NCBI RefSeq assembly: GCF_009177065.1 | Contig: NZ_WEZF01000004.1 | Coordinates: 186,001-250,000, forward strand | DNA length: 64,000 bases | Origin: Tautonia marina | GTDB lineage: Bacteria; Planctomycetota; Planctomycetia; Isosphaerales; Isosphaeraceae | Direction of reading: 5' to 3' | Made by a program: the position numbers and the translations under genes | The notes under the pieces: generated by a model | The model's database searches: none | Told to the model about the DNA's origin: nothing | Seen by the model: only the letters and a program-made list of their open reading frames with translations | Part shown: one piece after another, positions 5,394-18,401 of the stretch | How the letters are laid out: each line of letters begins with the position of its first letter | How positions within the stretch are numbered: the first letter of the stretch is position 1

Positions 5394-6305
5394 ATGGCCA
5401 AGGCCCGAGCGATCATCAAACGCCGCAAGTCGGTCCAGAACATCAAGAAGATTACGCGGACGATGGAGTTGATCGCCACGGCCCGCTTTCGAAAAGCTCT
5501 GGACCGCGCGACCGAGGCCGAATCGTATACTCGCAAGATTGCAGAAATTGTGAGCGATCTGAGCGAGACCTCAACCACTCAGGTCAGTCATCCGTTATTA
5601 GAGCAGCGCGATCCGGTTCGTCGGGTCGGCATGCTCGTGCTGACCAGCAATCGGGGACTTGCCGGCAGCTATAATGGGAACGTTCTTCGACTGGCCACTC
5701 GAAACTACGAGGAGTTTCAGGAGACCGGTACCACTCCATTACTCGAAGTATCGGGAAAGCGAGGCATCGGCTTTCTCCGGTTTCGCCGCATTGCGGTCGA
5801 TACGACCTACACACAATTTGAGGACCGCCCTCAGTTCGACGAGGTTGAGGTTCTCGCAAACCGTTATCTGGGAATGTTTCTCCGTGGCGAGATCGACCGA
5901 TTCGAGGTCGTTTATACAAGGTTTGTCTCGGCGTCTCGTCAGACACCCGTCAGCGAAACCTTGCTTCCGATGACGGTTGATCGTGCAAGAGAAGATGTCA
6001 GTCGACATCCCAGGAAAGGGGCGAATGGTGCCCTCGGTCGAGCACGGACTCCTTACGAGTTCCTGCCGGAACCGGAAAGCATTCTTGAAGAGATCGTTCC
6101 GGCGTCCTTCAAGGTTCGACTCTTCAAATGCTTCCTCGATGCCGCCGTCAGTGAACAAATCATGCGCATGATCGCCATGCGGGGCGCCACCGAAAATGCT
6201 GACGAAATGGTCAAAACACTGACCCGACAGTATAACCGTGCCCGGCAGTCACAGATTACTCGAGAGTTGTCTGAAATCATCGGTGGTGCCGCAGCGCTTG
6301 GTTGA
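5394..6305 (+). CDS. atpG: F1Fo ATP synthase subunit gamma
   Basis: Subunit gamma is the central rotating shaft of F1. The 303-residue protein has the expected ends: the N-terminal helix (IKRRKSVQNIKKITRTMELIA) and the C-terminal helix (YNRARQSQITRELSEIIGGA), which pair into the coiled-coil rotor. The Rossmann-like middle part carries RRVGMLVLTSNRGLAGSYN. Length is normal (about 285-300). A 197-base gap separates it from atpA, containing only a small GGGTC/GACCC hairpin near 5270-5283. atpD follows 83 bases later. Confidence 0.94.
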   Translation: MAKARAIIKRRKSVQNIKKITRTMELIATARFRKALDRATEAESYTRKIAEIVSDLSETSTTQVSHPLLEQRDPVRRVGMLVLTSNRGLAGSYNGNVLRLATRNYEEFQETGTTPLLEVSGKRGIGFLRFRRIAVDTTYTQFEDRPQFDEVEVLANRYLGMFLRGEIDRFEVVYTRFVSASRQTPVSETLLPMTVDRAREDVSRHPRKGANGALGRARTPYEFLPEPESILEEIVPASFKVRLFKCFLDAAVSEQIMRMIAMRGATENADEMVKTLTRQYNRARQSQITRELSEIIGGAAALG

Positions 6306-6370
6306 TCAGGTTGCGACTCTACCCATCGACCACGCCGGATACACGATCGAACATCCCCCCACGCTTTTGA

Positions 6371-7831
<1,461 letters not shown>

Positions 7832-7848
7832 GCAGTCTCCTCGTCAGA

Positions 7849-7911
7849 ATCGTCTGTCCGATCGGCAACGTGGGTAAGTTCTGGACGGCCCAACGACATT
7901 GGACAGACGAT
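7849..7911 (+). repeat. Inverted repeat between atpD and atpC
   Basis: Bases 7849-7862 (core ATCGTCTGTCC) pair with 7898-7911 (core GGACAGACGAT) over 14 positions, with one G-T wobble and a 35-base loop. The 304-base stretch 7832-8135 holds no credible gene, and no T-run follows the stem. An RNA structure that sets the level of the epsilon subunit, or that punctuates transcript processing, is an inference. Confidence 0.6.
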
Positions 7912-8135
7912 CGTGATGAGCGGCCAACCGCGACTCTCGCCCGAAAGCCTTGCCCCAATCGGATCGGGGAGTGGTACCTTGTCGACTCGGAGCGAGTCCC
8001 AGTCTCCTGGTACCCACACTGACCTGAGCCCCGATCGATTCGCCGCTCGGCACACGGACCACCGTTGATTTTGATTCGTTGACCCACGCTCCGAGCCTTA
8101 TTGCAGCGAGCCTGACCCGGGAGACTTGAGCGGCC

Positions 8136-8618
8136 ATGTCCACGACTGCGGCCCTAATCGAACCCCAGGAACCGTTTGATGTCCCTCCGGGCAATCCAGT
8201 GAAAAAGGAACATCACGGTGTTCGCTGTCTGGTGGTGACTCCAGAGGCAACCGTTCTTGAAGATGTTGCCGAATTTGTGGCACTTCCTCTTTTCGACGGA
8301 GAACTCGGTGTATTGCCGGGTCGCACTCCGCTGATTGGACGACTCGGTTACGGAGCGCTGCGGCTCCGGACTGGAACCTCAGAACGGCGATACTTCGTGG
8401 ATGGTGGTTTCGCTCAGGTCCGTGATGATGTCGTAACCATCCTCACCTCTCGGGCCATGCCGGTTGAGAAAATCGACCGGAATCTCGCCCAGCAAGAGCT
8501 TGAATCAGCAAAGGCTCGGAAAGTGACCTCCCCTCTGGATCTTACAGACAAGGCCCGTGCCGAAGATCGCGCCAGGGCCCTGCTCCGGCTTGCCGGCAAG
8601 TCAGGGGCAGGGAATTAA
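8136..8618 (+). CDS. atpC: F1Fo ATP synthase subunit epsilon
   Basis: Subunit epsilon sits at the foot of gamma and can inhibit ATP hydrolysis. The protein has 160 residues against roughly 130-140 in the family. The first 27 or so are an extra polar, Pro-rich leader. The beta-sandwich domain follows (RCLVVTPEATVLEDVAEFVALPLFDGELGVLPGRTPLIG, split here by position 30-68), then FVDGGFAQVRDDVVTIL, then the C-terminal helical hairpin beginning near residue 115. It is the last gene of the operon and is followed at once by an intrinsic terminator. Confidence 0.92.
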   Translation: MSTTAALIEPQEPFDVPPGNPVKKEHHGVRCLVVTPEATVLEDVAEFVALPLFDGELGVLPGRTPLIGRLGYGALRLRTGTSERRYFVDGGFAQVRDDVVTILTSRAMPVEKIDRNLAQQELESAKARKVTSPLDLTDKARAEDRARALLRLAGKSGAGN

Positions 8619-8711: not shown

Positions 8712-11700
8712 TCAATCAGCTGCCGGGTCAATCGTTGAAGTTCGCAGCAGTCGGAGGGTTCCCGGAGAGGCTGGGAGGACCATTGTTCCTTCAACCGGGT
8801 TGGGCCCGCCTGCGGGTAAGGGGCTCAGCTCGAACCGATCCGACGGAGAGCCGTCGGAGAGAACTCGTCGGTGCAATGTGCCGCCAAGTGTGCAAAGCCA
8901 GACATCGTCACCTTCGATCATGGGTGGTCCCGACAGGCTGTCTCCTTCCAGATCGATCGTCCACAGACGCTCTCCACCAAGACCGAACGCTATTACCTTG
9001 CCTGAGGCATCCGCGACGAGGACCGTACCGGAATCCAGGTCGGTATATGGCCCCAGCGCAACCGGTGCGTCGAGTTCCCAGGCTCCTGCCGGACTGAGGT
9101 CTCGGGAAGCGAGGGCCCGAATCCAACCGTCGGCCGTGGCCAGAATGATCGTATCTCCTGTGGAGCCCGGGGGAGCGATCAGTGGTTGCCCAAGTGCGAC
9201 CTCCGTATCGATTACCAGGCGGGGGCGGTCTCCCTCATCCTTGTAGACGCGACGCACCCCCCCGTTCCGATCAGCAAGCACGATTGCGTTGCCATTGATC
9301 GGCACTGGATCAAGCCAAGCACTTGGTCCATCGCCCGTGAAGGTCGGTAAGAGTGGATCGGCCTTGGGGCCACCGGTCGTGGGATCGATCAGATAAACCC
9401 GACCATCCACACCGGGTACAAGCAAGTCATCCTCCCAGGTCAATGGTCGAGCGCTTAACGGAGATGGGAGTGTAATTCGGGTGAGATTCGCTCCATCCTC
9501 CTCTCGCACAAACAGGTGGTCCGTGTCGGGCGATGGGATGACCAGAGTGGCCAACCCGGCATCCATGCGTCGAAGCTGACCCACGGGAAGGCGGCGGTCA
9601 CCGGGCCTGGGAATCGGCTCGACAACGAAGCCCCCAGCCTGAAGGTCGTCAACGGGAAGCACCAATCGACTCCCATCACCGGAAAGCGAGGCAAGTCCTC
9701 GACGATCAGGCATCGGCTCGGGAGGAGCCGGCCAGGGAGAACCCAGAATCGTTCTCCAGGAAACCGCGCCATTTCGAGGATCGACGGACCAGAGCGTGGC
9801 TCCTCGGCCTCGATCCGGTGCCTGGGTCAGAACCATCCGGTTGTCGAGAATCTGAGGAGGAGCGAGCGCAGCCCCGGCCTGTGAGAGGGTCCAGGCCGTC
9901 GACAGGGTTGCAGTCTTCGTGTCGAGCTCGTACCGGGCGGTTCGGGCCGAAGCGACCCAAAGTTCTCGGTCGGTGCGAGCATAGGTGAACGTTGGTCCGA
10001 GCCTCGATCCTTCAGGCTCGACCCGAGTAATCAGTCGAAGGGGGTCTTCCTGTTCATAGGGACCGATGGCATAAGCATCGATACTACCTCGATCACTCAC
10101 GGCCCAGAGAACCTGGCCGGAGGATGCCGGAGTATCCCAGGTCCACCCGATGTGATCGACGCGCTGGCGGAGTCGAAGACGCGTTCCTTCAGACTCGATC
10201 TGGAAGAGGGACCAACGGCCGGACTCGGGACGACGATTTTCCGAAACGAGCAGATAGTTTCCGAATCGAGCCGGGGGACACGCGGCCGAACCGGGCTCGT
10301 GACCTACATACTCGACGGCAACACACTCGACGGGATCTCGTCGGATCACGAAGGCCACGGCCGCATGTCCAAGAACATAATAATGTCGTCCCAGATCATC
10401 CGCGACGGGGGTCTTGGCGAGCTTTCGGCCCAGGTCGATGGATGCTTGCCGGTCACCGCTGACCAGGTTGATCAGGATCAGTCGCCCACCAGCCGTCGGC
10501 TGAGCAAGCTGATTTCCAAGGATCAAGGGGGGGGCGATCACCGCTTCACCGATCTCTTGCCTCCAGACGAGCTGACCATTCTTGCCCGACAGACGCATCA
10601 GATCGCCAAATCGGGGATCAAACACCAGAACATCACCGTCGGCTCCTGGAATCGAAAGCGGCGGAAACGGACAATCAAGCCCAACAGGGACATGCCAGAT
10701 GGGAGCACCATTGGCGGCATCGAGCGCGTAGGCGAATCCATCGGCCAGTGCAAAGACAAGCGAGGGGCTTTCCCCTGCCGGCTCCATAGAGGAGCGAAGG
10801 ACAAGGGAGGTCGGAGGGCCGAGAGGGTCTGGCCGGGGCTCCGTCGAGGCTCGAACCCGGGTGAGATCGACCGAGGTGTTGGAGCGAATCAGCTCGTTGG
10901 CGGATCGGAGTCGGGTAATCACTTCGGGATCGTCGGCTTGATCGGCGTACTGCGTCACCAGCGTGTCGCGGGCCGAGTAAGTCGCGTCCGGGTCACCAGC
11001 CTCAAGAGCGGCGTCCATCGCGGTCAATGCGGTTTTCCGAGCCTGAGCTTTCTGGACGGAAGCGCGTGCCTCCTCCAGTCTGGTGGGAACTTTGGCACGT
11101 TCCCGAGCCAGCATGGCCGCGGAACCTCCAATGCGATCGTGCAATGTGACGGAGTGTTCGGCGAGGTCAAGAGCCTGAGCGTCGGCCAGCCTCTGGGCTC
11201 GATCAACCAGCCCGTTGGTCACTTCCAGCACCGCCTCGGCGAGGTCCGCCTTGGAGTCGGGATAGGCGGGTTCCTGGCGGAGATTCTCGTACATCGATTC
11301 CGCAGCATCGAGGGCATTGGCCCAGGCGGGATTACTTCCCGTGGTGAACTGACGGACCTCGGACAGAGCGCTCAAGACCCGTGCCTCGGAGACGAGCGAG
11401 TGGCGCGGATAATTATCGACGTAGAGGTCGAAACGTTCGATCGCATTGCGATATTCGGCGTTTTCAAGGCTCTCTTTGGCCTTGGCGAAGGCGCGATCCG
11501 CAGCCATCTCTCGAATGATTCCGAACAATCCGAATCCGAGCGACACCAAGATTGCCAAGGTCAGGACCAGGATGATGACCACCGGCGAAGAAAGGACGCG
11601 CTCCTCTCCCGGTGCTTGATCCTTGCCAAACACAACTGACTGAACCCAGCGAACCGGTATCATCAGTGGGTTGGCCAACCCGCCCTTCGCTCCGTTCTGA

Positions 11701-12236
11701 GGACCAGCCGATGAAACCTCCTGCTTTGAGGTCTTTGTCGGAGTAGATCGATCAGGTCGAGACGATCTCCGGTTTCGAATCGAGGGGGAAGGTTCGAGGA
11801 TCTCCTCGACGTCGTCGAGCGCGGAGTCGAGCGAAGGAGGTTCAACCTCTCCCGCCATCGGCCCCATCTGCCCGGCCCAGCCGCCAGCCAAGGGGGCTCC
11901 AGGCCGGGCTTGAACTCGGGTCTTTTCGAACTGAGCCGGACCATCGTCCGGAGTGATTAAAAAGATTCGAGCCTTGCCGATTCGGAGTTCACTTCCCTGA
12001 CGAAAGCTGGAAGAGACGACCTTCTTTCCGTCCACTTCGAGCGTTCTGGCTTCCGGAGTTGCCTCGACCTTGTATCGGTCGGTCTTCCAACGAAGCCGAC
12101 CGTGAAACGGCATGGCCTCAACGTCTTCGATCACGATATCGCACTTCGGGTCGGAACCGATAAGAACCTGATGATTTGGGGAAATCGTCAGATATTCAAC
12201 ACGACCCTTGCCGTCGTGAATCTCCAGCGTTGCCAT
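8712..12236 (-). CDS. Large FHA-like / transmembrane / PQQ-type beta-propeller protein
   Basis: This 1174-residue protein has three parts. Residues 1-80 are an FHA-like fold (LIGSDPKCDIVIED, then FHGRLRW). A Pro/Ser-rich linker leads to a single membrane helix at about 217-239 (VVIILVLTLAILVSLGFGLFGII). A helical TPR-like region follows (ERFDLYVDNYPRHSLVSEAR). From about residue 480 to the end are repeated YALDAANGAPIW-type blades of a PQQ-like beta-propeller. The topology suggests a cytoplasmic sensor joined to an extracytoplasmic propeller. The FHA Arg and Ser that normally contact phosphothreonine are replaced (GS for GR, MPFH for VSxxH), so phosphopeptide binding is doubtful. ATG 12236 is chosen over GTG 12284 because it opens the domain directly. 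It is the last gene of the six-gene minus-strand cluster. Function unknown. Confidence 0.85.
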   Translation of the reverse strand: MATLEIHDGKGRVEYLTISPNHQVLIGSDPKCDIVIEDVEAMPFHGRLRWKTDRYKVEATPEARTLEVDGKKVVSSSFRQGSELRIGKARIFLITPDDGPAQFEKTRVQARPGAPLAGGWAGQMGPMAGEVEPPSLDSALDDVEEILEPSPSIRNRRSSRPDRSTPTKTSKQEVSSAGPQNGAKGGLANPLMIPVRWVQSVVFGKDQAPGEERVLSSPVVIILVLTLAILVSLGFGLFGIIREMAADRAFAKAKESLENAEYRNAIERFDLYVDNYPRHSLVSEARVLSALSEVRQFTTGSNPAWANALDAAESMYENLRQEPAYPDSKADLAEAVLEVTNGLVDRAQRLADAQALDLAEHSVTLHDRIGGSAAMLARERAKVPTRLEEARASVQKAQARKTALTAMDAALEAGDPDATYSARDTLVTQYADQADDPEVITRLRSANELIRSNTSVDLTRVRASTEPRPDPLGPPTSLVLRSSMEPAGESPSLVFALADGFAYALDAANGAPIWHVPVGLDCPFPPLSIPGADGDVLVFDPRFGDLMRLSGKNGQLVWRQEIGEAVIAPPLILGNQLAQPTAGGRLILINLVSGDRQASIDLGRKLAKTPVADDLGRHYYVLGHAAVAFVIRRDPVECVAVEYVGHEPGSAACPPARFGNYLLVSENRRPESGRWSLFQIESEGTRLRLRQRVDHIGWTWDTPASSGQVLWAVSDRGSIDAYAIGPYEQEDPLRLITRVEPEGSRLGPTFTYARTDRELWVASARTARYELDTKTATLSTAWTLSQAGAALAPPQILDNRMVLTQAPDRGRGATLWSVDPRNGAVSWRTILGSPWPAPPEPMPDRRGLASLSGDGSRLVLPVDDLQAGGFVVEPIPRPGDRRLPVGQLRRMDAGLATLVIPSPDTDHLFVREEDGANLTRITLPSPLSARPLTWEDDLLVPGVDGRVYLIDPTTGGPKADPLLPTFTGDGPSAWLDPVPINGNAIVLADRNGGVRRVYKDEGDRPRLVIDTEVALGQPLIAPPGSTGDTIILATADGWIRALASRDLSPAGAWELDAPVALGPYTDLDSGTVLVADASGKVIAFGLGGERLWTIDLEGDSLSGPPMIEGDDVWLCTLGGTLHRRVLSDGSPSDRFELSPLPAGGPNPVEGTMVLPASPGTLRLLRTSTIDPAAD

Positions 12237-12315
12237 GCGAGGCGTCCGAGGGGTTGAAGTCAGGAGAAGGATGAGCGCCCACACTGAATGATCGACCGGA
12301 ATGATGTGACCGCAT

Positions 12316-13266
12316 TTAGTTCAGAGGTTGCTGATCAATCACTTCGAAGGCGAATCGGTTGCCGGTCGGGATCACCGTGAACTTGGTCGTCCGAATTTCC
12401 AGCGGTTGCAGACCTTTATATTGTTGTTCGAGGCGAGAGAGGATCTGCTCGACCTGCGCAGGGAAGAACTGGAAGATCACTCCACGCTGTCCCACATCAA
12501 TTCCCGCTTTCCCCAACAGTTCAATGTCCGACTGGCGCCGTCCCCCGCCTTGCCAGAGGAAGTACAGGCGATCGTCGTTGCCTCGGTTCGCGATTCGCAC
12601 ATCCGGCCGAGCCTTGGTAAAGTTCGATACGTAATGCATCTGGTTGTCGAGTACGGTTGCCATCTCGACACCGAAAAAGTCAAGCAAGCGGGCGTATTCA
12701 TCCAGGGTCTGGCCGGGATTATAAATGATACTCCAACGCTGCTCGCGCGGGACGCCACCATCTCCCGCCCCAAGGCCATATGCAGCAGCACCGGAGCCGA
12801 GTTTCGAGGCTCGGATTCCAGTCGCGAGTGCGCCTCCCTCTGGCATCTCCTCGGCCAGGTCGGCGAATTCCTGATTGGCCAGTTCATCGACCATTGCGGA
12901 CGGAACCTGTTCGAGTGAAGGTTCCTCGAAGTCCGCGGGAGAGAGTTCGGCGTTCGAGGCAAAGGCCGCGACATCGGCATCAGGCACATCGATTTGTTCG
13001 GTGGAATTTTCTTCGCCGTCGCGCCGTCCACCTCCCCCACCGTAGACCTCAATGATCTCAATCTGGGCCGGAACGCTGCGGGCATAGGAACGATTTGTGA
13101 GATAAATCAGTGCAAGCCAGCCGACGATGATCACGGCGCTGATGATGACAGCCATCAGCAGGGAGGTCACGCGGTCATAATCCGTTTCCCCCTGGATCTG
13201 AGGCGGGAGGAGTCGGGATGTATCAACCGACTCGGTGGCAGTGGTGGGCGATTGATGCACCGTCAT
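12316..13266 (-). CDS. Single-pass membrane protein of unknown function
   Basis: The 316-residue protein has a short cytoplasmic N terminus and one membrane helix at residues 36-58 (SLLMAVIISAVIIVGWLALI). A Gly-rich and acidic linker follows (GGGGGRRDGEE, then PSLEQVPSAMVDELANQE). A compact C-terminal domain of about 150 residues starts near WSIIYNPGQTLDEYARLLDFF. The layout resembles TonB/TolA-like or ExbD-like anchors with a periplasmic end, but I do not recognise the domain. It starts 21 bases after the toroid gene stop and ends 79 bases before the FHA-propeller start, so it is probably co-transcribed with both. Confidence 0.8.
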   Translation of the reverse strand: MTVHQSPTTATESVDTSRLLPPQIQGETDYDRVTSLLMAVIISAVIIVGWLALIYLTNRSYARSVPAQIEIIEVYGGGGGRRDGEENSTEQIDVPDADVAAFASNAELSPADFEEPSLEQVPSAMVDELANQEFADLAEEMPEGGALATGIRASKLGSGAAAYGLGAGDGGVPREQRWSIIYNPGQTLDEYARLLDFFGVEMATVLDNQMHYVSNFTKARPDVRIANRGNDDRLYFLWQGGGRRQSDIELLGKAGIDVGQRGVIFQFFPAQVEQILSRLEQQYKGLQPLEIRTTKFTVIPTGNRFAFEVIDQQPLN

Positions 13267-13287
13267 GGTGGCGAGCCCCTCGCGGAG

Positions 13288-14880
13288 TCAGTTACGACCG
13301 GAAGAGATGGCGGGATCGACCTGAATGGCGGGTCGGACCGAATCATACCAACGCTGCCATTCGGCCGCTGCGGCTCGTTTTTGCTCGGCATCGGCCTCGG
13401 GAGGAAGTCCGTTACGATCGAGACTTCGACTCAGTAACCGAAGGCCATAGTCGGCGGTCGCGGCAACCTCGTCGTTGCGATCTTCGAGCGCCCCAATGAG
13501 ATCGGGAACGACGTCGAGGTCACCAGTGCGGGCCAGTGCCCAGGCGGCTGTCAATCGCTGAGAGGGAATCCCCTCGACCAGCAAGACACGAAATCGGTCC
13601 TTGTACGGCTTGAGGGCAAGCGGACCACTGGTGAAGTAGCGGTTGATTAACCCGGCAAGGGCTGATTCTCCCTCGTCGGCCCGAGGATCTTCAAGGACCG
13701 AGAGCATTTCCTCAATCGCTCCGTTCATCGGTCGAACAACGACCCGACCTTGCGCCACGGTCAAATTCTCAAGGTTTTCGGGAAGGCCCCGGCCCCCGAG
13801 CAAGGTCCCGGAACCAAGACGCTCGACCTGGATCCGTTCGAGCGTCTTCTCAGTCGCCCGCGTCAGAAACAGAATCGCCCAGGACGTGTTGGGAACGGTT
13901 TCGAACATTGCGTTCCAGCTTCCGTCCCCCGCCTGGTTCGCCGTAATGTACTGAGACCCCACCCGGAACCACTCGACGGACCCGAATTGAGTGAGATTTC
14001 CCAATCCTCCAACACGTTCACAGCCATAAAGACCGTAATAGGTTGAGAGTCCAAAAAGATTGGATTGACCGGGACGATAGTTGCGAGCGAGCCAGGCAAT
14101 TCCCTGACCGATCGCTTGATCGAGCTGTGCTTCAGAAAGACCAACTCGATAATCGGCCTGATCGGTTTCAGGTACGAGCGGGATCAGCAAGGGACTGGTT
14201 GTCCGTTCCCTGCGCTTCCGATACGGGGCAAGCTGCATCTTGCAGATCAGTAGGCTGCCCGTTCCTGCGGCTGTCATCGAGACGGTCGGCTGGCTCGGAG
14301 CGTCGGGATGGTAATTCCAACCGCCACCACGCTGAACCGACATGTACCATCGGGCCGCGCGTTCCCAAACGCTCGGAGGAATTCGGACCCCGGCGTTCTC
14401 TGCTTCCCAGAGCCCAAGGATGGCGTATTGAGAGATCGAGCAATCGCCAGTATCACCCGCCCTTCCATCGTAGTCCCAGGCACCGTTGCTCTTTTGCTTG
14501 GAGATCAGATAGGAGGCCGCAGACTGAATCAAGGGGCGGTAGACGGCAGGATCGAGGTTGACCAGCATCATGCAGGCGATGCCGGTTTCGTAGATGTCAG
14601 CGCCTCCAGAGCGGGCCGGTCGGTAGCCCTCGGTCGTTGAGGCGCTTAGGGCATTCTGGATGGTCTCGACGAGCGCGGGATCACTCGCTGGAACACCGGC
14701 TTTCAACATTGCCAAGGCTGCTAGAGCTGATTCCCCGGGCGTGACCGATGGCCCGCGAGATTTCAGATAGGCAATTCCACGGGAGACGGGAGCGTCTTGA
14801 GCCGTCACGGCATGCGAGGGCATCCAGGCCGCAAAAACGACCGTGAGTGACCCCAAAACGCTTCGAACTAAACCAAGCAT
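13288..14880 (-). CDS. Secreted prenyltransferase/squalene-cyclase-like toroid protein with HEAT-like C terminus
   Basis: The 530-residue protein has a signal peptide (residues 1-27, ending AVTA) and alpha/alpha-toroid repeats of the squalene-hopene cyclase/prenyltransferase type: YLISKQKSNGAWDYDG, DCSISQYAILGLWEAE, YMSVQRGGGWNY, and ITANQAGDGSWNAMFETVPNTSWAILFL. From about residue 420 the sequence changes to HEAT-like helices (RLTAAWALARTGDLDVVPDL). A canonical DxDD cyclase motif is not visible, so a binding or scaffold role is more likely than terpene cyclisation. Such secreted toroid proteins are frequent in planctomycetes. CGGAG lies just upstream of the start. Confidence 0.85.
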   Translation of the reverse strand: MLGLVRSVLGSLTVVFAAWMPSHAVTAQDAPVSRGIAYLKSRGPSVTPGESALAALAMLKAGVPASDPALVETIQNALSASTTEGYRPARSGGADIYETGIACMMLVNLDPAVYRPLIQSAASYLISKQKSNGAWDYDGRAGDTGDCSISQYAILGLWEAENAGVRIPPSVWERAARWYMSVQRGGGWNYHPDAPSQPTVSMTAAGTGSLLICKMQLAPYRKRRERTTSPLLIPLVPETDQADYRVGLSEAQLDQAIGQGIAWLARNYRPGQSNLFGLSTYYGLYGCERVGGLGNLTQFGSVEWFRVGSQYITANQAGDGSWNAMFETVPNTSWAILFLTRATEKTLERIQVERLGSGTLLGGRGLPENLENLTVAQGRVVVRPMNGAIEEMLSVLEDPRADEGESALAGLINRYFTSGPLALKPYKDRFRVLLVEGIPSQRLTAAWALARTGDLDVVPDLIGALEDRNDEVAATADYGLRLLSRSLDRNGLPPEADAEQKRAAAAEWQRWYDSVRPAIQVDPAISSGRN

Positions 14881-14991
14881 GATACTCCGGAGCAGAAGAT
14901 CGAGGGACCATCAAGTTGAATCGCTGACGGATGCGAGAATTCTTCGGGAGTCACCGGCCGAAGAAAAGGCCGGTGACTCGATCCGGTTGCG

Positions 14992-15825
14992 TCAATCCTT
15001 GAGAATCGGGCGAACCTCGAAGCGTCGGCAATGCAACTCAGCCCCTTCGGACTGGAGGAGAATCTTCCCTCGCGTCAAACTCGCCTTGGTGCCGACGTTG
15101 ACGACATAGCCATTCACGATGTTGGTGATGGTCTCGCCATCGCAAATCACCTCCATCGTGTTCCATTCACCCACCGGACTTTCGACGTCTCGGGGACCTC
15201 GAACGTTGATGACATCCTTCCACTCAGGGTCGCGTCCCCACCAATTGTAGCGACCTGAATTCCGGGTTACGGGACTTCCGTTGACGGGGTCGTAGTAGAG
15301 TTGGTTGCCCTCACCTTCCCGGACAACGCAGGTGAGACTCGGTCGTTCGGCACCGCCAACCATGATGAAATCGCCGCATCCCCCTTCGATGATCTGGCAC
15401 TCGATCGACTCCATCCAGCCGGAACCGGCAGCGCCATCCTTGCCAACACAGTGCAGGAGAAGCCCGGAATCACGCGACCTGTCAACCCGAGGCGGGAACG
15501 TCTTTGGCCCCCATCGCCACTCGATAACCAGGTGGTAATTTTCGTACTCGTCGTCGGTGATGATGCCCCCGAACTCCTCGCCGGAGATGCGGATCATTCC
15601 ATCATTCACCGTGAAGACCTTCTTGGGGTCGTCGTACCCGCTGTCCTTCAGATAGGTGTAGAAACCGGAAAGGTCTCGACCGTTAAACTGGAAGATGGGA
15701 TCCCCCGAGCGAATCTCGGGGCGATCGAGCGCGAACTCGGGAATATCCTCACGGTCTTGAGCCGAGGGAAGGGAGATCAGGGCCGTGGACATCACGGCCA
15801 GGCCAAGAAATGTCGAGGAGATCAT
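14992..15825 (-). CDS. Secreted DUF1080 (3-keto-disaccharide hydrolase-like) protein
   Basis: The 277-residue protein has a signal peptide at 1-22. The rest is a concanavalin-like jelly roll of the DUF1080 family, recognised from FQFNGRDLSGFYTYL at the start, the DSGLLLHC strand, WMESIECQIIEGGCGDF, and WNTMEVICDGETITNIVNG near the end. Some members hydrolyse 3-keto-glycosides, and the family is greatly expanded in planctomycetes. The substrate here cannot be told from sequence. It starts 36 bases upstream of a 111-base gap before the toroid gene and lies in the same-strand cluster. Confidence 0.85.
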   Translation of the reverse strand: MISSTFLGLAVMSTALISLPSAQDREDIPEFALDRPEIRSGDPIFQFNGRDLSGFYTYLKDSGYDDPKKVFTVNDGMIRISGEEFGGIITDDEYENYHLVIEWRWGPKTFPPRVDRSRDSGLLLHCVGKDGAAGSGWMESIECQIIEGGCGDFIMVGGAERPSLTCVVREGEGNQLYYDPVNGSPVTRNSGRYNWWGRDPEWKDVINVRGPRDVESPVGEWNTMEVICDGETITNIVNGYVVNVGTKASLTRGKILLQSEGAELHCRRFEVRPILKD

Positions 15826-15860
15826 CGGGATGCTCGATCGGGTTTGAAGGAGGGTGAAGC

Positions 15861-16142
15861 TCAGGATCGCTGGTGATGAACCTCGGCACCGAGCGATCGG
15901 CAGAGCGATTCGATGCGGTCCATGGGCACGGAATCAGGACGCGGAATGGAGAGAATCATCCCCTGACGCCCCTCGATCTGATCGGGAGGAGTCACCGCGA
16001 GCCGATCCGAAGGAATGCCTAGACCGACCAGGCGTTGAATCGCCAGGTTTCCCTGGGACGAATTTCGGAAGAAGGCGACAATGCGAGGGGATGGGTCCGC
16101 CTCAAGAACTTTGCCAGGTCGGACCTTCGGAGGCTCGATCAT
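15861..16142 (-). CDS. Small protein of unknown function
   Basis: The 93-residue protein has a core RIVAFFRNSSQGNLAIQRLV followed by GIPSDRLAVTPP, which has the beta-helix-beta look of the small stress-protein/DUF domains where a residue pair of helices recognises AxxAVxxLxxxGxxxxxI patterns. The resemblance is weak. I start at ATG 16142 because GGAAG lies about 8 bases upstream. An in-frame TTG at 16271 would give 136 residues, but the added part has no family character. The stop is 35 bases before the DUF1080 start, so co-transcription is likely. The 174 bases between this gene and the kinase stop hold nothing else I can identify. Confidence 0.6.
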   Translation of the reverse strand: MIEPPKVRPGKVLEADPSPRIVAFFRNSSQGNLAIQRLVGLGIPSDRLAVTPPDQIEGRQGMILSIPRPDSVPMDRIESLCRSLGAEVHHQRS

Positions 16143-16316
16143 CACCACGTCTTCCAACCGGACCAATTTGCCGAGAGATTCGGAGATTGAGATCCTGGCT
16201 GGAAGCTCAATCCGTGTCTCGAAAGTCTGCCAGGCTCGACCATGCGACGCAAGTGACTGGCGGTTGCCCAATACCCCGTCAACGATGGCATCGCATGTTC
16301 GAATGCTCGAGGTGCG

Positions 16317-17243
16317 TCATTCTTCGTCTTTCGGGGCAATCTCCAGTGCCCTGAGATCGTTGGCCACTTGTGCCATGCTGGGATAGCGATCCTCCTTTCG
16401 TCGAGCCAGGCACCGATCGACCACTGCGCAGAGATCGTCCGGGAGATTGGGAGCCACGTCGGCCAGGCGAAGGGGATCGGCATTCATCCGGGCTCGGATC
16501 ATGGCCATCTGGTCGCCAGCCATCTCGTAAGGCAGTCGGTTCGTAAAGAGTTCGAATGCCATGACGCCAAACGAAAAAATGTCAATTCGACGGTCGGTCG
16601 CCTCGCGTCGAATTAATTCGGGGGCCATATACTGGAGCGTGCCGGTACGATTGCCTGGGCGATGGAAGTGCGGTTCATCGGGCACAGCGAGACCGAAATC
16701 GATGATTTTGACCACATTCTCGCGGTTGACCAGGACGTTCTTTGGACCGAAGTCGTGATGGATAAATCCTGCCTGATGAACCGCCTCCAGACCTTCCGCC
16801 GTCTGGATCAACAGGCCGACCTTGTTACTCAGGTCCCGAGCGCCGATCTTCCGAATTTCCGAGAGGCTCACACCCTCGACGAATTCCATCGAGAGCCAGT
16901 GCTCTTTCTTGGTCGACAAACCATAGTCGAAGGTCAAAACGACATTTTTATGTCGGATTTTCGAACCGATCAGCCCTTCGGGTGGGCGTCCTTCTCGGGA
17001 GGCTCGGGACAAGGCTTCGGCAGTCTTTTCACTGTTCTGCACTTTTAAGCAGACGGACCGCTGTTGTTCGTTGTCCATGGCCTTGGAAACATGGGACATG
17101 CTCCCCTGACTGGTTTCGGCAAGGATCGTGAATCGGCGAGCCAGGTTCACCCGCTTCATCTTCGGTATCGGGGCGGGCTTGACCTTCCCGGCAAGTTCGG
17201 GGGCTTTTTTCGATTCCTTTGATCCGAATAGCTTTCCGAACAT
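16317..17243 (-). CDS. Hanks-type Ser/Thr protein kinase
   Basis: The 308-residue cytoplasmic kinase has a basic N-terminal tail (residues 1-35) and then one kinase domain. Lys67 is in VCLKVQ. The catalytic loop HHDFGPKNVLV at 162-172 contains Asp164 and Asn169. DFG is at 182-184, the APE motif is at 207-209, and DIFSFGVMAFELFT follows. The catalytic Lys/Asp/Asn/Asp set is complete, so activity is expected. The HRD arginine is His (HHD), a non-RD form usually not controlled by activation-loop phosphorylation. The glycine loop is poor (SQGSMSHV). There is no membrane helix or sensor domain. The frame is open to 17459, but ATG 17243 begins a typical soluble start and is preceded by GGGAG. It is the first gene of the minus-strand cluster. 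Confidence 0.88.
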   Translation of the reverse strand: MFGKLFGSKESKKAPELAGKVKPAPIPKMKRVNLARRFTILAETSQGSMSHVSKAMDNEQQRSVCLKVQNSEKTAEALSRASREGRPPEGLIGSKIRHKNVVLTFDYGLSTKKEHWLSMEFVEGVSLSEIRKIGARDLSNKVGLLIQTAEGLEAVHQAGFIHHDFGPKNVLVNRENVVKIIDFGLAVPDEPHFHRPGNRTGTLQYMAPELIRREATDRRIDIFSFGVMAFELFTNRLPYEMAGDQMAMIRARMNADPLRLADVAPNLPDDLCAVVDRCLARRKEDRYPSMAQVANDLRALEIAPKDEE

Positions 17244-17633: not shown

Positions 17634-18401
17634 ATGAGCGACCTGATGGTCATCGCGCTCGGCGCACTGATCGCAGTTGGTTCGACAAACTCCGCCGCGC
17701 AAGACCAGCCGGCGCAGCAACCGGCCGCCCAACCCGCCCCTGCCAATGCAGACCTCTCGGATCTGAACTCCAAGGCGAGCTACGGCTTCGGTCTGAATAT
17801 CGGACGGACATTGAAGATGCAGTCCGAGCAATTCCAGCTCAACGCCAGGCTGGTGGCTCGAGGCATCGCCGATGGCTTGAACGATGCTCAACCCCTGCTG
17901 ACCGACGAGCAACTGGCTCAGGTCATGGAAGAATTCGAACAGCAGTTACTCGCCCGGCAGGCAGAAGCTGAAAAGGCGATGCTCGAACAGAACAAGGAAA
18001 AGGCGGCGGAAAACAAGACCGCCGGCGACGCTTATCGAGCGGAATTCGCCAAGAAGGAAGGGGTCAAGTCAACCAATTCCGGGTTGCTCGTCGAGGAACT
18101 CAAGGCGGGAGAGGGTGCTTCCCCGACGCTCTCCGACACGGTCACGATTCATTACAAGGGAAGTCTCCTCGACGGGTCTGTGTTTGACTCGACGGAGGGG
18201 AAAGGGCCGATGACGTTCCCGGTCGCGGAGTTCATCGAGGGTTGGAAGCAAGCCCTTCAATTGATGAGCGTGGGTGACAAGTGGCGCGTCGTCATCCCTC
18301 CCGAGTTGGCCTACGGTGAATTCGGGACTCCTGGAGGCCCGATTCCTCCCAACTCAACCCTAATCTTCGAGATTGAGCTGCTGGGTATTTCGGGTGAATA
18401 A
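17634..18401 (+). CDS. FKBP-type peptidyl-prolyl cis-trans isomerase, exported
   Basis: This enzyme catalyses proline isomerisation to assist folding of exported proteins. The 255-residue protein has a short signal sequence (1-22, ending SAAQ) and a Pro/Ala/Gln linker. An FKBP_N helical dimerisation domain covers about 40-130 (YGFGLNIGRTLK, then an Ala/Glu/Lys-rich helix). The FKBP_C catalytic domain follows at about 150-253, with VTIHYKGSLLDGSVFDST, WKQALQLMSVGDKWRVVIPPE and LAYGEFG; the active-site aromatic pattern is retained. This is the Mip/FkpA/FklB architecture. AAGGAGG at 17623-17629 is a near-perfect ribosome site 4 bases before the ATG. Confidence 0.94.
   Translation: MSDLMVIALGALIAVGSTNSAAQDQPAQQPAAQPAPANADLSDLNSKASYGFGLNIGRTLKMQSEQFQLNARLVARGIADGLNDAQPLLTDEQLAQVMEEFEQQLLARQAEAEKAMLEQNKEKAAENKTAGDAYRAEFAKKEGVKSTNSGLLVEELKAGEGASPTLSDTVTIHYKGSLLDGSVFDSTEGKGPMTFPVAEFIEGWKQALQLMSVGDKWRVVIPPELAYGEFGTPGGPIPPNSTLIFEIELLGISGE

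Follow-up and report, generated by a model that had tools for sequence, protein, structure and literature searches.

We conclude that three of the six genes clustered on the minus strand at positions 8712-17243 of the window (the whole 64,000-nucleotide stretch of Tautonia marina DNA that was analysed) probably encode inner-membrane and periplasmic parts of a class-specific envelope machine driven by the proton motive force. Sequence comparison shows that the cluster as a whole is two things: a displaced conserved core, consisting of a toroid protein, a protein with a single transmembrane (TM) helix that we term TMp and a large propeller protein that we term PROP, and a set of later neighbours, which include a kinase and a DUF1080 protein. 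The main piece missing from the initial annotation of this DNA was an ExbB/ExbD motor, and the partners of the core lie outside the window.

Layout of the gene cluster

All six (6/6) of the same-strand genes described in the initial annotation were found, and Pfam and PDB profile matches back the identities given to them. The features of the cluster, and of the ATP synthase genes beside it, are as follows.

8712-12236, minus strand: PROP, a protein with FHA-like, TM, TPR and PQQ beta-propeller parts in that order (Pfam and PDB profile matches); the open frame reaches 12284
11976-12167, minus strand: FHA-like cytoplasmic domain of PROP, phosphothreonine-contacting Arg and Ser replaced (S44, M58)
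11511-11594, minus strand: TM helix of PROP (approximate, read from the sequence)
11250-11501, minus strand: TPR-like region of PROP (weak YfiO/YbgF-type matches)
8730-10787, minus strand: periplasmic PQQ/BamB-type propeller region of PROP, ~690 residues (Pfam and PDB profile)
12316-13266, minus strand: TMp, single-TM protein and candidate force transducer (Pfam and PDB searches gave no relative)
13081-13182, minus strand: TM helix of TMp, residues 29-62, lacking histidine (model and orthologue alignment)
12325-12744, minus strand: folded C-terminal domain of TMp, residues 175-314, preceded by a disordered linker of ~105 residues (AlphaFold2 model)
13288-14880, minus strand: secreted alpha/alpha-toroid (squalene-hopene-cyclase-like) protein with C-terminal HEAT repeats (Pfam, alignment and PDB profile)
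14992-15825, minus strand: secreted DUF1080 / 3-keto-disaccharide hydrolase-like protein (PF06439, 2e-27), a local addition found in part of the Isosphaeraceae
15861-16142 (conserved part), minus strand: small conserved Isosphaeraceae protein with no Pfam match
16317-17243, minus strand: cytoplasmic Ser/Thr kinase (Pfam Pkinase, 5.5e-38), found in this position in the genus alone
5394-6305, plus strand: atpG
6389-7831, plus strand: atpD
8136-8618, plus strand: likely atpC

PROP is likely to start at 12236 rather than at 12284, because its orthologues start at MATLE. As first called, the last five genes are separated by gaps of 31, 21, 111 and 35 bases. Strong terminators in the internal gaps, which the initial annotation had named as a sign against a single unit, were not seen: no minus-strand site resembling a terminator lies between any two of the last five genes, and the count of terminator-like sites is 9 against 8.9 in shuffled sequence, which is no excess. 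On the kinase side, a secreted FKBP-type peptidyl-prolyl isomerase (17634-18401, plus strand) is divergent to the kinase and keeps this place in the genus. At the other end, the F-type ATP synthase genes (5394-8618, plus strand) are convergent to PROP in this genus.

A conserved core and its later neighbours

Using tblastn, we compared the six window proteins with the loci of 30 relatives. The toroid protein, TMp and PROP occur together throughout the Isosphaeraceae and beyond. The DUF1080 and small proteins are confined to part of the Isosphaeraceae; roughly half of the family has DUF1080 at this locus. The kinase adjoins the set in the genus alone, which is represented by four genomes. The refuting condition named in the initial annotation, that the genes are neighbours in this genome alone, is false for the core of three, which is class-wide, and true at the level of the genus for the kinase.

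A search of 294 genomes of the phylum detected TMp in 52, and all the matches listed belong to the window's class. Within the class, 172 of 199 genomes carry TMp and 176 of 199 carry PROP, nearly always in single copy. Where both gave strong matches they lie within 9 kb of each other in 113 of 133 genomes, including all 31 of the 31 Isosphaeraceae.

The ExbB/ExbD motor in the wider gene order

Five other families of the class (f2, f4, f5, f6 and f7) carry one ExbB and two ExbD genes after TMp. In f2, f5 and f7 these ExbB/TolQ-like and ExbD/TolR-like genes sit between TMp and PROP, and PROP is followed by two further genes: one for a secreted TPR-SBP_5 protein, termed SBP, and last one for a secreted protein with no Pfam match, termed P530. 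The fullest order is toroid, TMp, ExbB, ExbD1, ExbD2, PROP, SBP, P530. The f6 locus is spread over two contigs, the first holding the toroid, TMp, ExbB, both ExbD genes and part of PROP, the second another part of PROP, SBP and P530. In f4 the set lies in two pieces, TMp-ExbB-ExbD-ExbD and PROP-SBP-P530. A TPR/peptidase-like gene before the toroid was considered as a further conserved member and was excluded, because Pfam identifies different proteins there in f2 and f7.

In the Isosphaeraceae the toroid, TMp, PROP, SBP and P530 genes are mostly together, and ExbB-ExbD1-ExbD2 form one operon elsewhere. In the window genome this operon lies on another contig (C14, about 7.1-9.8 kb), and MotA_ExbB and ExbD Pfam matches identify its products as TolQ/TolR-type motor subunits. 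SBP (C4:171785-174127) and P530 (about C4:170124-171779) are encoded on the strand of PROP but ~20 kb further on, and the atp operon is among the genes in the interval. The same displacement marks the genus, where the ATP synthase genes stand between PROP and these usual downstream partners (L079, contig C4:166001-186000); in other Isosphaeraceae genera SBP and P530 mostly follow PROP directly.

Since the motor operon is absent from the locus in the Isosphaeraceae, the link to the motor rests on synteny in the other families and on co-occurrence. The ExbB encoded elsewhere is orthologous: in a maximum-likelihood tree that also took in 20 paralogues from the same genomes, all nine (9/9) of the Isosphaeraceae ExbB proteins included join nine syntenic ExbB proteins with support 99/99, and the paralogues fall apart from this clade. 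ExbD1/ExbD2 retain the region around the channel Asp (TPMVD or TAMVD). At its cytoplasmic N-terminus ExbD2 has a zinc ribbon in f2, f5 and f7 and a weakly GYF_2-like domain in f1 and f4 (compare L080:4095-5672 with L049:8642-9658).

Of 34 relatives that are at least 90% complete, 28 carry all three of PROP, the ExbB orthologue and SBP and the other 6 carry none of them, so that the three are concordant in 34 of 34 (Fisher value 7e-7, a figure that ignores kinship). Phylogenetically the joint absences amount to few losses, being mainly those of f3, together with one f4 genome and the Isosphaeraceae member G009, whose assembly may be incomplete. Family f3 (G026, G031, G035 and G039) has no ExbB orthologue of the syntenic clade, and its matches to PROP and to the C-terminal domain of TMp are only distant and apparently non-syntenic.

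We also searched for the established energising systems. TolB_N (PF04052) was found in 0 of 40 relatives, with controls positive in three genomes, and the TolA C-terminal domain (PF06519) likewise in 0 of 40, with the E. coli control positive. TonB_C (PF03544) was found in 4 of 40 relatives overall and in 0 of 25 Isosphaeraceae genomes. The motor family is present, but TolB_N and TolA were not found in the 40 relatives, nor TonB_C in the family; we therefore interpret the gene set as a trans-envelope machine driven by protons.

TMp as a candidate force transducer

In the AlphaFold2 model of TMp, a TM helix (residues 29-62) is followed by disorder to about residue 170 and a confident C-terminal domain (175-314). 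This is the plan of the Ton, Tol and vWA transducers: a TM helix, a long disordered linker and a globular C-terminal domain. Two results weigh against the proposed machine. The first concerns the SHLS motif, through which TolA, TonB and the vWA transducers are reported to bind the motor (PMC12204202): the TMp helix has no histidine in any of 16 orthologues (0/16) and so does not carry it. The second is that the C-terminal domain matched no solved structure: Foldseek and other structure searches with the model gave no significant PDB match, a profile search of PDB sequences gave nothing at E 1, and no Pfam family was matched. The predicted order of its elements, b-a-b-b-b-b-a-b-a-b-b, differs from that of vWA.

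Predicted periplasmic components and a possible role in uptake

The PQQ_2 match in PROP is above the cut-off (4.5e-22), and a profile search of the PDB with PROP returned BamB and GarA-type FHA structures. For the toroid protein, Pfam gives a weak squalene-hopene-cyclase-like match with HEAT repeats, and a PDB profile search returned the C-terminal domains of squalene-hopene cyclases and HEAT repeats. As a test of the cyclase identity we looked for the class II DXDD motif, which is absent from the conserved columns of the toroid alignment. Pfam detected no TonB_C domain in PROP or TMp.

A TolB-N-like domain in P530 was expected beforehand from its sequence pattern. The P530 model (mean pLDDT 84.8) gave as top Foldseek matches FlgT (E 5e-8) and TolB (7e-5, in the TolB N-terminal domain). 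The single-domain match to TolB is moderate (Z 8.3, rmsd 3.1, 114 residues), which suggests a likeness at the level of fold only.

In most loci SBP is the gene immediately after PROP, and its matches are to binding proteins of the NikA/DppA type. This raises the question of whether the set is an import system, in which SBP would bind a peptide or similar in the periplasm, the toroid and propeller would lie on the outer-membrane side, and ExbBD with TMp would energise a Ton-like import; the lack of TonB_C in the Isosphaeraceae would suit such a scheme. However, the conserved genes include neither an ABC permease nor an outer-membrane receptor, the SBP domain may serve as a scaffold, and conservation in single copy across the class is more in keeping with a core envelope function than with a nutrient system. 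We regard uptake as an unlikely explanation of the set.

The chance that the genes form an ordinary envelope operon with no shared machine, the motor genes being adjacent for other reasons, seems to us rather poor. The set is indeed broken into two or three pieces in the Isosphaeraceae and f4, but the identical gene order in f2, f5 and f7 and the joint loss of the components argue against this.

The FHA-like domain and the kinase

The FHA-like domain of PROP scores just over the Pfam FHA threshold (22.2 bits, with the cut-off at 20.7). In all eight (8/8) FHA-bearing orthologues the two residues that contact phosphothreonine, an Arg following Gly and a Ser three positions ahead of His, are missing, these two sites holding S/T and M/L/Q/F/A/E. 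Families f5 and f7 have a different N-terminal domain in its place. In the PROP orthologues of two families (L052:7390-10731 and L057:3547-7056) the replacement is a short helical domain, ending ...GHLTKYQAKRLIAE, which we take to be of a type familiar from planctomycete kinases. The cytoplasmic module of PROP is thus exchangeable.

The initial annotation read the cluster as an outside-in signalling or envelope assembly system under phospho-control. Envelope assembly fits our results; signalling does not, since the kinase is confined to the genus, DUF1080 is patchy and the FHA residues are lost. Sensing of an extracellular ligand by the propeller or the DUF1080 protein, with a phosphorylation relay through kinase and FHA domain, is very improbable for these reasons and because the wider core has a motor and not a second sensor, even though the kinase and the FHA-like domain are encoded close together in the genus and the exchange of that domain in two families is what a regulatory input might show.

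A proposed envelope machine

The reading that we favour is of a proton-driven machine. Its motor would combine a pentamer of ExbB with a pair of non-identical ExbD subunits, encoded in the window genome on contig C14, and TMp would act as the force transducer or adaptor of this motor. Through PROP, a large propeller and a TPR region would be anchored in the periplasm, with the FHA-like domain facing the cytoplasm, and the toroid/HEAT protein, SBP and P530 would form a periplasmic scaffold or substrate-handling part. In this way the proton gradient of the inner membrane would be spent on work in the outer cell envelope. What the comparisons establish is the gene families, their conservation and order, the orthology of the split-off ExbB, the shared pattern of presence and absence, and the lack of TolB_N and TolA matches in 40 relatives; we infer that these proteins form one complex, that protons energise it and that force passes through TMp. 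The work itself may be holding the outer membrane in place, movement of a polymer or uptake of a ligand.

Comparison with known systems

The set shares its motor and general plan with Tol-Pal, Ton, the vWA-transducer clusters and Agl-Glt, and by the features tested it seems to be none of them. The Agl-Glt/Nfs machinery of Myxococcus (AglRQS, GltG, GltJ) likewise has one TolQ-like and two different TolR-like subunits, TPR proteins, and a protein joining an FHA domain through a TM helix to a large periplasmic part (GltG there, PROP here). GltJ has cytoplasmic zinc-ribbon and GYF domains, which recall the zinc ribbon or weak GYF_2-like domain of ExbD2. GltG consists of FHA plus TonB_C (PMC3169522), whereas the protein here bears a propeller and no TonB_C; propeller, toroid and SBP_5 proteins are not known among the Glt components.

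Tol-Pal (TolQRA-TolB-Pal-CpoB) shares with our set a TolQ/TolR-type motor, a single-TM periplasmic protein, a propeller, TPR parts and, in P530, a TolB-N-like fold. It differs in having the TolB_N and TolA families, neither found in the 40 relatives; the propeller here is PQQ/BamB-like and membrane-anchored, and SBP_5 and the toroid have no Tol-Pal counterpart.

The PVC vWA force-transducer clusters of planctomycetes resemble the TMp locus in having a TolQ-like gene, a heterologous TolR pair and a protein with a TM helix, disordered linker and globular C-terminal domain (PMC12204202). Those transducers carry the SHLS histidine and adopt a vWA fold, in contrast to the histidine-free helix and different predicted element order of TMp. 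FlgT, a periplasmic ring or scaffold protein (H-ring) around the stator-driven flagellar motor of Vibrio (PMC7990780), resembles P530 in a two-domain fold match, but P530 has additional transthyretin-like and helical domains and the locus has no flagellar genes.

Text searches of the open-access literature found no paper describing this gene set, in agreement with the earlier statement that no system of this composition was described. We put forward only tentatively the stronger proposal that this is a proton-powered trans-envelope machine of new composition, with TMp as a new kind of transducer, which stands in for Tol-Pal or Ton across most of the class and has been broken up over the genome in the Isosphaeraceae.

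Significance

Planctomycetes of this kind possess an outer membrane and a wide periplasm, and their division is often by budding. The gene set addresses the question of how the outer membrane is energised in a class with no detectable TolB, TolA or, in the Isosphaeraceae, TonB. The main text of the essential-gene paper on the planctomycete Planctopirus limnophila makes no mention of ExbB, ExbD, TolQ, FHA or propeller genes (PMC10632474). That same work reports genome-wide mutagenesis in P. limnophila, and because such mutagenesis exists, the question is open to experiment. A class-wide, single-copy set that includes a motor and a candidate transducer renders it testable, and would extend the list of uses to which the ExbBD/TolQR motor family is put.
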